Virus record (IMG/VR): IMGVR_UViG_3300042486_001136
Coordinates: 1-40,207 of that record
DNA from: a virus
Length of the DNA stretch: 40,207 nt
Direction: 5' to 3' (one strand)
Shown here: in pieces, positions 37,160 to 40,178 of the stretch
How positions within the stretch are numbered: position 1 is the first letter of the stretch
Layout of the letters: each line of letters opens with the position of its first letter
Notes under the pieces: model-generated
The model's input: only the letters and a program-made list of their open reading frames with translations
Told to the model about the DNA's origin: nothing
The model's database searches: none
Translations under genes and position numbers: made by a program

Positions 37160-37455
37160 TAGTATTGCTGCCAGCTAGTATCGCCACCAACACGATAACC
37201 ATCGTGCTTGTCTGGGTCGTAGTCCTGGAAACTACCTTCAATGTCGTCGCTATAAGACTCCGAATCTTCATCAAAGTCTGGTTCGTCACAGTATTCTGAA
37301 TATGGGTAAATGCCGTATGCCTCTGCATTTTCTTTGGCACGCTCCCAGCACAACTCATTGAGTTCATCATCAGTTGCATCAGGTGACACTTCCCAGAACT
37401 CGTGACTATCCATGCCGCAATAGCCAGTATGTAAAAACAATACAATTTTACGCAT
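37159..37455 (-). CDS. Acidic hypothetical protein (98 aa)
   Basis: 98 aa. Hydrophobic start (MRKIVLFLHTGYCGMDSHEF), then HEFWEVSPDATDDELNELCW and a strongly acidic C-terminal half (DEPDFDEDSESYSDDIEG). The high negative charge suggests DNA mimicry or binding to a basic partner. Function unknown. Confidence 0.7.
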   Translation of the reverse strand: MRKIVLFLHTGYCGMDSHEFWEVSPDATDDELNELCWERAKENAEAYGIYPYSEYCDEPDFDEDSESYSDDIEGSFQDYDPDKHDGYRVGGDTSWQQY

Positions 37456-37463
37456 ATGATTCC

Positions 37464-37820
37464 TTAGATACTAACAGTTTGTGGTTGTGGCACAGTCAAT
37501 TCTGCGCCTTCCAAGCACGCAAACAAAAATGTCTTGCCTGGGTTTAGTTTTGCCAAACGACGGCACTCACTACGAGCATCTGCACGGTAATTGTGTACAA
37601 CAGGTACAGCACTAAAACTAAGGCCTACATTTGGTTGGTAGCTGCCAACAATATATCGTTTGTTGCGAACAGCTTCGTGTGCGGAATTTTGATTGTCAAT
37701 TGTTTTTGGTGTCATATTAATTTGATTTAGTTCATTTATTTCGTTAAGTTTCATAATATCGTTTCTCATGTTACCTAGTATGCTGGATAACACGATAGCT
37801 TCATCGCTGTCTGAATTCAT
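37464..37820 (-). CDS. Hypothetical protein (118 aa)
   Basis: 118 aa. Helical Asn/Asp-rich N-half; C-half has RYIVGSYQPNVGLSFSAVPV and ARSECRRLAKLNPGKTFLFACLEG, resembling short phage proteins of unknown function. Its RBS (AGGGG) lies in the distal arm of an inverted repeat that surrounds the promoter. Confidence 0.7.
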   Translation of the reverse strand: MNSDSDEAIVLSSILGNMRNDIMKLNEINELNQINMTPKTIDNQNSAHEAVRNKRYIVGSYQPNVGLSFSAVPVVHNYRADARSECRRLAKLNPGKTFLFACLEGAELTVPQPQTVSI

Positions 37821-38851: not shown

Positions 38852-38943
38852 TGGCGGGTGGCAGAGGAGTCGAACCCCATCCCGTTTCCGAGAACCTGGT
38901 TTTCAAGGCCAGTCGCAGGACCAACCCCGCTGCATTACCACCC
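38852..38943 (-). tRNA. tRNA-Ser(TGA)
   Basis: 92 nt with encoded CCA, class II with a long variable arm. Acceptor GGGTGGT/GCCACCC, anticodon loop CTTGAAA (anticodon TGA), T arm GGGGTTCGACTCCTC, discriminator G as in bacterial tRNA-Ser. Confidence 0.9.
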
Positions 38944-38948
38944 ACTGT

Positions 38949-39542
38949 TTATTCTTTGGCTGCGTCAGTTTCCTGTGCGCGAGCTGCCTGCAACTTTTCC
39001 AGTCGCTGTGCAACTTCGTCACTGGTCATCCAAATGTCTTTGTTGTGCAACATGCTGGAAATTTCTTCACTGGTTAAAAAGTCTTTGTATACCGCACTCA
39101 TAAAGTTTTCAGACCAACGACGTTCAAATTGCAGTTGATCGTACATTTCACCGCCTTTGCCAAATGTTCCAGCACTATAGTTGTGAAACATAAAAAGACT
39201 GTGCGGTGTGATTTCGTGTGCATGACCGTGTAAGAAGATCATGGTGGCTGCACTCATGCAAGCGCCTTCAACACTGGTAACAATAGTTGCTTCTGTGTCC
39301 GACATTACTCGCAAGAACTGTAGTGTGGTATACAGGTCACCACCAGGCGAGTTGATATAAATACGAATAGTATCTACTTCGGATGCATTGCGAATGCAAT
39401 CAAACCACTCAATGTATTCTTCAGCATCTAGCACAGGGCCGCTTAGGTAAAACTCATGAAGCTGTGCAACTGGCTTTGAAAAGCTATTTGTGTACTTTTC
39501 AGGTTGAAACAATTTAGGGTCGAGATAATTGTCTTTGTTCAT
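38949..39542 (-). CDS. ClpP-family serine protease
   Basis: 197 aa. ClpP/crotonase fold with the catalytic triad: Ser97 in EGACMSAATMIF, His120 in SLFMFHNYSAG, Asp169 in NKDIWMTSDE, nearly the E. coli numbering (S97, H122, D171); oxyanion region NSPGGDLYTTLQFL. Length equals true ClpP. RBS AAAGGAAC precedes the ATG, directly downstream of the tmRNA. ClpP-like proteins in phages usually mature heads, but no capsid gene is nearby and the neighbour is a tagging RNA, so degradation of tagged proteins is a real alternative. It would need a host ClpX/ClpA. Confidence 0.9.
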   Translation of the reverse strand: MNKDNYLDPKLFQPEKYTNSFSKPVAQLHEFYLSGPVLDAEEYIEWFDCIRNASEVDTIRIYINSPGGDLYTTLQFLRVMSDTEATIVTSVEGACMSAATMIFLHGHAHEITPHSLFMFHNYSAGTFGKGGEMYDQLQFERRWSENFMSAVYKDFLTSEEISSMLHNKDIWMTSDEVAQRLEKLQAARAQETDAAKE

Positions 39543-39552
39543 GCGTTCCTTT

Positions 39553-39636
39553 AATATAATTAAGCACTCTAGCTAGCCGTGGAGCCCTTGCTGTTATGCG
39601 CGGTGGGGTTTTAACCCAAAAGTGCTTAATTATATT
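39553..39636. repeat. 16-bp inverted repeat between tmRNA and clpP
   Basis: Perfect 16-bp arms (39553-39568 and 39621-39636; AATATAATTAAGCACT and its complement) with a 52-base loop. On the minus strand it lies after the tag-bearing piece and right before the clpP RBS, so it could define the 3' end of the tmRNA precursor or shield clpP translation. Confidence 0.85.
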
Positions 39637-39688
39637 TGCCAGCTTATTCTGTTACGAGGGAAGCCGAGCGAGAAACCCTAAGCAGTTT

Positions 39689-39721
39689 TTAAGCTGCTAG
39701 TGCGTACGTTTGATCGTTTGC
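39689..39721 (-). other. ssrA: tmRNA tag reading frame, ANDQTYALAA
   Basis: GCA AAC GAT CAA ACG TAC GCA CTA GCA GCT TAA. The resume codon GCA follows an A-rich stretch as in E. coli (ANDENYALAA). The ending ALAA is the standard ClpX-dependent degradation signal. Confidence 0.95.
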
Positions 39722-39870
39722 GTTTATTTTTGTTTTGTGTCTGCGGCCAGGTAGAGCGTCTTTTTGTGCTATATGCACAACGACTACACTTTGCCCCCAA
39801 CCCTACGGCTTCTACATTGCCGAGTTGTCTACTTTGCTACTCTTAGCCCGGTCGATCCTGTGTCAGGCCC

Positions 39871-39957
39871 ATCAAAAGCATACTACTAGCATATAAGCTA
39901 AAAGAGCCGATCCTTCCAACCGCTGTCGGCCACCCTTTGGGTAGGGTAATATACTTA
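39871..39957 (-). other. Intervening segment of the permuted tmRNA precursor
   Basis: 87 bases between the native CCA end and the native 5' end, removed in mature two-piece tmRNA. It contains short hairpins (ACCC-AAA-GGGT; GCCGA with TCGGC). Confidence 0.8.
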
Positions 39958-40017
39958 TGGTGGACCTGGCGGGCACTGCCCCCGCGTGTCGAACTCTTTT
40001 GGGTCTGCTTCATACAA

Positions 40018-40105
40018 CCATATTTTAGCACACTAACGGACATGCGTCGTAACCACTTTCTAAGCCTGTGCACAGGCAGTGGGCTTCTAGTATGCTAAAA
40101 TATGG
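40018..40105. repeat. 13-bp inverted repeat at the start of the tmRNA precursor
   Basis: Arms 40018-40030 (CCATATTTTAGCA) and 40093-40105 (complement) around 62 bases. The distal arm includes the CCA end of tRNA-Thr, so the tRNA and tmRNA precursor are physically joined in one fold before processing. The loop contains a perfect GCCTGTGCACAGGC palindrome. Confidence 0.8.
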
Positions 40106-40178
40106 TGCCGGTTGCATGAATCGAACACGCGACCTTCTCGTTACAAGGGAGTTGCTCTACCAACTGAGCTAAACCGGC
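40103..40178 (-). tRNA. tRNA-Thr(TGT)
   Basis: 76 nt with encoded CCA: acceptor GCCGGTT/AACCGGC, D arm AGCTCAGTTGGTAGAGC, anticodon loop CTTGTAA (anticodon TGT), T arm GCGTG TTCGATT CATGC. The anticodon stem (ACTCC/CGAGA) has two mismatches, so function is slightly uncertain. Bases 40179-40207 hold no recognised feature. Confidence 0.85.

Follow-up and report, generated by a model that had tools for sequence, protein, structure and literature searches.

Does a phage that carries a tmRNA gene directly beside a gene for a ClpP-like protease use both products together, the first to tag proteins and the second to destroy them? This question is raised by a 40,207-base IMG/VR virus record (hereafter the window), in which the original prediction had placed a tmRNA and a ClpP-like gene with an intact catalytic triad next to each other at positions 38949-40102, proposing a tag-and-degrade module that removes truncated proteins or redirects host proteolysis through host ClpX. 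Both genes are indeed present and covered by this interval, the tmRNA being recognized by the Rfam family RF04321 and the protease by Pfam and PHROG matches and by the residues S97, H120 and D169; what had been overlooked is the permutation of the tmRNA. Read along the minus strand, the order is tRNA-Tyr, a hairpin, the tmRNA gene, a second hairpin, clpP, a probable tRNA-Ser and the tRNAs Gly, Gly, Val and Met. The features of the locus are as follows.

40103-40178, minus strand: tRNA-Tyr(gta), the upstream neighbour in the array (ARAGORN).
40015-40108, minus strand: long hairpin with a type C tip and the palindrome CCTGTGCACAGG, between tRNA-Tyr and tmRNA (RNAfold -40.2 kcal/mol, z -4.95).
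40064-39630, minus strand: circularly permuted (two-piece) tmRNA gene (RF04321 core, RF01850 extension).
39958-40019, minus strand: acceptor piece of the tmRNA, with one P2 side, the T-arm, the alphaproteobacterial-type T-loop GGCAGTG, the 3' acceptor CAGGTCC and an encoded ACCA (RF04321, coordinates from the sequence).
39871-39957, minus strand: intervening segment of the tmRNA, 87 nt, presumably removed as in known permuted tmRNAs.
39722-39870, minus strand: 5' acceptor GGGCCTG, D-loop ACACAGGATCGAC, the other P2 side and the pseudoknot region of the tmRNA (read on the sequence).
39689-39721, minus strand: tag reading frame ANDQTYALAA followed by TAA (from the sequence).
39553-39636, minus strand: long hairpin with a type A tip, between tmRNA and clpP (RNAfold -28.4 kcal/mol, z -2.2).
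38949-39542, minus strand: phage-type ClpP-like serine peptidase, 197 aa, triad S97/H120/D169 (ORF, Pfam, PHROG, fold).
38856-38943, minus strand: probable tRNA-Ser(UGA) directly 3' of clpP (tRNA-Sec model, 35.9 bits, below gathering).

The probable tRNA-Ser was not called by ARAGORN, and its anticodon loop, CTTGAAA, was read by eye. This tRNA region also contains, ∼3 kb upstream of the tmRNA, a gene for an RNA-binding protein of the TROVE (Ro60-like) kind that matches VWA weakly (L324:17883-19259, minus strand, corresponding to positions 97883-99259 of the related contig G001).

The permuted tmRNA model of Rfam (tmRNA_permuted, RF04321, gathering score 47) fits positions 40019-39689 of the minus strand end to end, with 91.3 bits and an E-value of 1.7e-16, and the Beta_tmRNA model RF01850 widens the gene to 40064-39630 with 62.9 bits, under its gathering score of 84. 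ARAGORN made no tmRNA call in the window and called the permuted gene (tmRNA*) in many relatives. The piece bearing the CCA, which ends at 39958, comes first in the gene; the 87-nt intervening segment (39957-39871) separates it from the 5' acceptor GGGCCTG (39870-39864), the D-loop and the tag. As read on the sequence, the acceptor stem forms 7 of 7 pairs and includes G3.U70. The tag codons GCA AAC GAT CAA ACG TAC GCA CTA GCA GCT TAA (39721-39689) specify ANDQTYALAA, with an alanine resume codon and a degron-like end; the predicted ALAA ending was thus correct. A 40-nt insertion (∼39750-39800, minus strand), which by eye forms a small hairpin, lies within the tmRNA pseudoknot region of the window and of the nearly identical contig L001, and is missing from the relatives compared.

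Two-piece tmRNAs are already known in aquatic phages, and 53 of 133 unique phage tmRNA structures are reported to be of this kind (PMC9004378). The tmRNA of the window has the same order of acceptor, intervening and coding parts, the same G3.U70 and CCA and the same Ala-initiated tag as the known permuted tmRNAs (RF04321, RF01849 and RF01850; OM43 phage Melnitz, PMC9004378). However, it differs from them in lying beside clpP within a tRNA array, whereas that of Melnitz adjoins a transcription coactivator with a glutamine riboswitch (PMC9004378), and in combining an alpha-type tRNA-like domain with a coding domain that, in close relatives, is joined to one of the beta type. When cultured phages were searched with the DNA of the tmRNA, only short matches resulted, and those with an annotation were ordinary ssrA. 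The cultured jumbo phage XacN1 (AP018399.1) contains two permuted tmRNA copies (37231-37530 and 356026-356325, 123 bits), on which the text of its genome paper is silent (PMC5852040).

Could the tmRNA be a passenger, captured or decaying and retained by hitchhiking alone? Some relatives lack a tmRNA and the gene is mosaic, as would be expected of such a passenger. Nevertheless, conservation already contradicts this explanation. In the tmRNA-bearing loci that were parsed, the acceptor is paired at 7 of 7 positions with compensatory changes, the 5' strand having been located partly by pairing, and G3.U70 and ACCA are always present. The T-arm, which played no part in locating any strand, is 100% paired with two-sided changes in 3 of 5 pairs, and none of 500 shuffles reached the observed share of paired cells. 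The tag frame is kept as well: all tags beside clpP are 10 aa long, nearly all end in ALAA or ALVA, and the pattern AND??[YF]AL[AV]A is kept in nearly all relatives with a tmRNA beside clpP. Selection acts on the tRNA-like domain and on the tag, ribosome rescue by the tmRNA itself is plausible, and retention by hitchhiking alone appears very improbable.

The end of the tag had been taken as a sign that its products are sent to ClpXP. Among 169 phage permuted tmRNA reads in the loci fetched there were 57 distinct tags, 36 of which end in LAA. Most phage tmRNAs of the LAA type have no ClpP nearby, so the ALAA ending does not point to the phage ClpP. Five other phage permuted tmRNAs (L087, L197, L216, L234 and L238) encode 12-aa tags ending in ANA instead of LAA; such tags might permit ribosome rescue with no delivery of the product to ClpXP.

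The ClpP ORF (39542-38949, minus strand) matches the Pfam family CLP_protease (PF00574, S14) with an E-value of 9e-13 and phrog_1827, ATP-dependent protease, with 1.3e-61. Its AlphaFold model (pLDDT 84) has the ClpP fold and superposes on bacterial ClpPs with a Z score of ∼18 over 152 residues at 2.2-2.4 A, handle helix included; only bacterial-type ClpPs were among the top rows of this comparison, and other folds may match as well. Identity in the structural alignments is only ∼15-20%, and in a one-sequence search E. coli ClpP (NP_414971) resembled the phage profile weakly (E-value 2e-9). All 48 phage ClpPs retain Ser97, His120 and Asp169. In bacteria, hydrophobic pockets between ClpP subunits receive the IGF loops of the unfoldase (reviewed in PMC8182300 and PMC9753991). 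The E. coli enzyme has the same fold as the phage protein and the triad Ser97-His122-Asp171, a numbering confirmed in PMC12383707, and it differs in its ATPase-docking pocket, which is hydrophobic in E. coli and charged or polar in the phage ClpP.

The alignment is gapless between INSPGG and the catalytic Ser. We take the E. coli pocket to consist of Y60, Y62, F82, I90, M92, F112 and L114, and these residues were mapped onto the 48 phage ClpPs by sequence (HMM alignment) rather than from a solved complex. The position of F82 is E, D or N and that of L114 is T, S or N in all 48, M92 is replaced by E in all 48 and I90 by S in 46; Y60 is mostly K or R, F112 is mostly E, and Y62, mostly kept as Y or H, is the sole pocket residue that is mostly retained. 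The hydrophobic pocket expected of a canonical ClpX- or ClpA-dependent ClpP is thus charged or polar in nearly all of these proteins. Moreover, Glu at position 92 is common to the ClpPs of the phages XacN1, RAS14, ICP1, Vibrio phage P1 and P26059A, and this occurrence in cultured phages indicates that the loss of the pocket is family-wide and did not arise with the tmRNA. Judging from the aligned residues, the phage ClpP is most likely a divergent peptidase which host ClpX/ClpA do not feed, or which has some other feeder; it could also dock through another surface or form mixed rings with host ClpP. A redirection of host proteolysis through ClpX, as had been proposed, is unlikely given the docking pocket lost in 48 of 48 phage ClpPs.

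Searches of 39 related contigs for SmpB and of 25 related records for an AAA_2 Clp unfoldase found neither, the controls being positive in both and the records being fragments. Host factors would therefore be needed, although either gene could lie outside the sequenced part of these incomplete contigs.

Phage ClpP-like proteins can also serve in head maturation, and such folds are used for this purpose in other phages, as reflected by weaker PHROG matches: the window ClpP is distantly similar to phrog_94, 133 and 1684, which are filed as head-and-packaging, whereas the window-type clpP lies far from the head cluster. The latter could be located because contig L001 (G001, 104,217 bases) represents almost the same virus: the window corresponds to its positions 55173-95259, mostly at 96-99.9% identity and lower in small stretches of the tRNA array. 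The head cluster of G001, at 21-31 kb, encodes the terminase subunits, the portal and a protein of 641 aa, after which come the connector and tail genes. The N-terminal half of the 641-aa protein (L321:4799-6724, plus strand) matches head maturation proteases (phrog_80, 9e-43) and its C-terminal part matches major head proteins (phrog_267 over residues 371-625; phrog_617 along the entire protein). One fused protein thus supplies both the head maturation protease and the major capsid protein, and it is the second phage protease beside the capsid genes that the original prediction had suggested looking for outside the window. A head maturation protease should be encoded with the portal or capsid genes, with no other maturation protease present; here clpP is ∼67 kb from the protease-capsid fusion, within the tRNA array, with replication genes between the head cluster and this array. 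Cultured phages likewise place ClpPs of the phrog_1827 type by phoH or DNA-ligase genes. With a separate protease joined to the major capsid protein, head maturation does not require ClpP, and we rejected it as a candidate for this role; that it is a prohead protease is scarcely credible.

We then considered whether the adjacency itself points to a joint function. In the window, the tag stop (39689) is 146 nt from the clpP ATG. A search with the ClpP protein retrieved 72 viral loci, and in 27 related loci (24 without near-duplicate contigs) a permuted tmRNA lies 38-200 nt upstream of the clpP ATG on the same strand. The close relatives are all metagenomic, with mostly incomplete contigs, and form a clade of uncultured, tRNA-rich phages. 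Among loci with enough upstream sequence and a ClpP identity of at least ∼70%, a permuted tmRNA is found upstream in nearly all, and adjacency is seen across ClpPs as low as ∼64% identity, which leaves some functional coupling possible. The tmRNA lies 0.6-2.9 kb upstream of clpP in L024, L026, L029, L037, L039, L040 and L061-L062, and by contig coordinates it is also near clpP in L064-L066. The search for permuted tmRNAs found none in L023, L028, L032-L036, L038, L067 and most of the more distant contigs, and no one-piece tmRNA scored above the cut-off in the tmRNA-less relatives tested. At the syntenic spot, the tmRNA is missing in L023, L028, L033-L035 and L038, and the tmRNA-less loci retain clpP and its downstream neighbours. 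The pairing is therefore conserved in relatives, and since the order recurs in many independent contigs it far exceeds chance. Thus, neither of the two findings that the original prediction had set against itself, a virion maturation role of ClpP and a pairing unique to this genome, was made.

However, the whole array is syntenic, most loci having the order tRNA-Trp/Tyr/Leu/Asp/Asn/Gln/Arg, two ORF families, tRNA-Cys, tRNA-Thr, the tmRNA where present, clpP, an ORF, tRNA-Gly and so on, and the tmRNA-clpP adjacency is consequently no better conserved than that of neighbouring genes. The reverse sampling started from pattern scans for alpha-type and beta-type T-arm and acceptor, each of which gave at least ∼120 viral stretches, part of the beta-type set not being tmRNAs. 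Among the matches listed, a phrog_1827-type ClpP was present in the locus of 2 of 80 alpha-type and 3 of 31 verified beta-type tmRNAs, so that ∼106 of the 111 sampled had no such ClpP nearby; the loci being limited in length, this is a measure of proximity. Every ClpP-positive contig of this sample was already in the ClpP-derived set. At the contig level, 10 of 35 large tmRNA-bearing contigs encode some phrog_1827-like ClpP, a raw share without a size-matched baseline. Conversely, many phages with a phrog_1827-type ClpP have no tmRNA. The ClpPs of T5-like phages, ICP1 and XacN1 belong to the same family, with the same triad and Glu at the M92 position, and are likewise encoded among early or metabolic genes at a distance from the head genes; among the cultured members inspected, unlike in the window, the neighbours are phoH, DNA ligase or ribonucleotide reductase and not a tmRNA. 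In XacN1 the permuted tmRNA and the ClpP gene are not adjacent, and in Curvibacter phage P26059A, a possible cultured relative, clpP lies by phoH with no tmRNA annotated there. Our search of the open library found no paper linking phage tmRNA and ClpP. A dedicated module should be conserved beyond background synteny and show general co-occurrence, and we found neither. The adjacency is best explained by both genes residing in one syntenic accessory (tRNA/translation) region.

A true tag-and-degrade module, in which host or truncated proteins receive their tag from the tmRNA and are then destroyed by the phage ClpP, either docked to host ClpX or assembled together with host ClpP, would account for the conserved same-strand order, with the tag stop 38-200 nt ahead of the ATG, for the ALAA ending and for the intact triad. 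Yet the docking pocket is replaced in 48 of 48 proteins, a change common to phage ClpPs without a tmRNA neighbour, the tags of phage tmRNAs without ClpP end in ALAA by default, and the tmRNA is missing at the same spot in the six loci named above. With ALAA ordinary, synteny array-wide and adjacency rare among phage tmRNAs, the proposed functional link between the two genes found no support, and we regard such a module as quite unlikely. The uniformly charged or polar docking surface on a retained ClpP fold with its handle helix could suit a dominant-negative decoy, which enters host ClpP rings, blocks ClpXP and protects phage proteins, tmRNA-tagged ones included. This too seems unlikely, for the active triad is kept in all phage ClpPs, which a pure decoy need not do, and the ∼15-20% identity to bacterial ClpPs makes mixed rings uncertain.

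We favour, with some reserve, a reading in which the tmRNA is a spare part for translation that uses host SmpB and host proteases, ClpP being a separate divergent peptidase that host ClpX does not feed; since ClpP has lost the surface that feeds it from an unfoldase, the two probably do separate jobs. The permuted tmRNA would be transcribed with the upstream tRNA-gene array as its last member, and host RNase P and tRNA 3' processing would cut it into two pieces. Host AlaRS would charge it with alanine through G3.U70, and host SmpB and EF-Tu would carry it to ribosomes stalled on broken mRNA during infection. ANDQTYALAA would then be added and the product cleared by host ClpXP/ClpAP, while the phage ClpP would act apart, presumably as a peptidase, and not as a partner of this tag.

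The comparison of relatives also revealed that the tmRNA is composite. The T-loop GGCAGT with the D-loop AGGATCGA or a close form occurs in the window, L001, L007, L008 and L027, and fits the Alphaproteobacteria model RF01849 (consensus GGCgGUA / AuAGGAUCGA), whereas the nearest ClpP relatives of these loci carry the beta-type pair TTCGA / GTTTCGAC. Across phage tmRNAs, T-loop and D-loop types are matched in 64 and 92 cases, crossed in 3 and of other classes in 13. On a quick ClpP tree there are ∼4 type changes, at least 3 of which are forced by well-supported branches. L027 and L031 are identical at 34 of 34 positions before the T-arm and at 93 of 93 from the tag to 60 nt beyond, and differ in the T-arm, the intervening segment and the D-loop region; over 58 nt, the D-arm half of L027 shares 93% identity with tmRNAs from numerous phages of a ClpP-independent sample. 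These identical flanks around a differing domain that matches elsewhere indicate that the tRNA-like domain moves between phages as a cassette with the intervening segment. That this domain has repeatedly switched between the alpha- and the beta-proteobacterial type, with tag and clpP left in place, is well supported. Tentatively, the cassette, consisting of the T-arm, acceptor, intervening segment and D-loop of either type, may be exchanged so that the rescue RNA fits the SmpB and AlaRS of the current host; for such a host-matching purpose, the match to these two proteins would be the obvious candidate.

Finally, long hairpins bracket the tmRNA in the window and occur in relatives, including L003:928-1042, L022:2448-2562 and L332:313-429. 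Their stems of 18-21 bp covary (two-sided changes in 17 of the 36 pairs of the type B alignment) and their tips are of three interchangeable kinds. The type A tip of 39553-39636 recurs in relatives, and for the type C hairpin at 40015-40108 a palindrome is retained in relatives. The type B tip contains a 6-nt palindrome whose sequence differs between phages and which a script scored as palindromic in 15 of 17, against a shuffle mean of 2; inspection by eye shows a palindrome in the two that the script missed and in L264 as well. A palindrome that is constant while its sequence varies suggests that type B tips form loop-loop dimers. An Rfam search of the hairpin elements gave no meaningful match; they are a new, unnamed class of structured RNA, with covarying stems and a palindromic loop, that adjoins these tRNAs and tmRNAs. 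In L264 (3340-3452, minus strand), a type B hairpin is itself the intervening segment of a permuted tmRNA.

Phage tmRNAs have been known for years, and a search of the open library brought up no purpose for them that had been tested. The phages described here offer a tractable case: their two-piece tmRNA, compensated and under selection, occupies a single fixed position, and among very similar phages it is either there or missing and comes in two structural types, so that a phage's need for ribosome rescue of its own and the need of the RNA to match host SmpB become directly testable. On the protease side, phage ClpP genes should not be read automatically as ClpXP subunits. The repeated swap of the tRNA-like domain is a new result and, if its host-matching purpose is true, would represent the exchange of a host-matching module inside one RNA.
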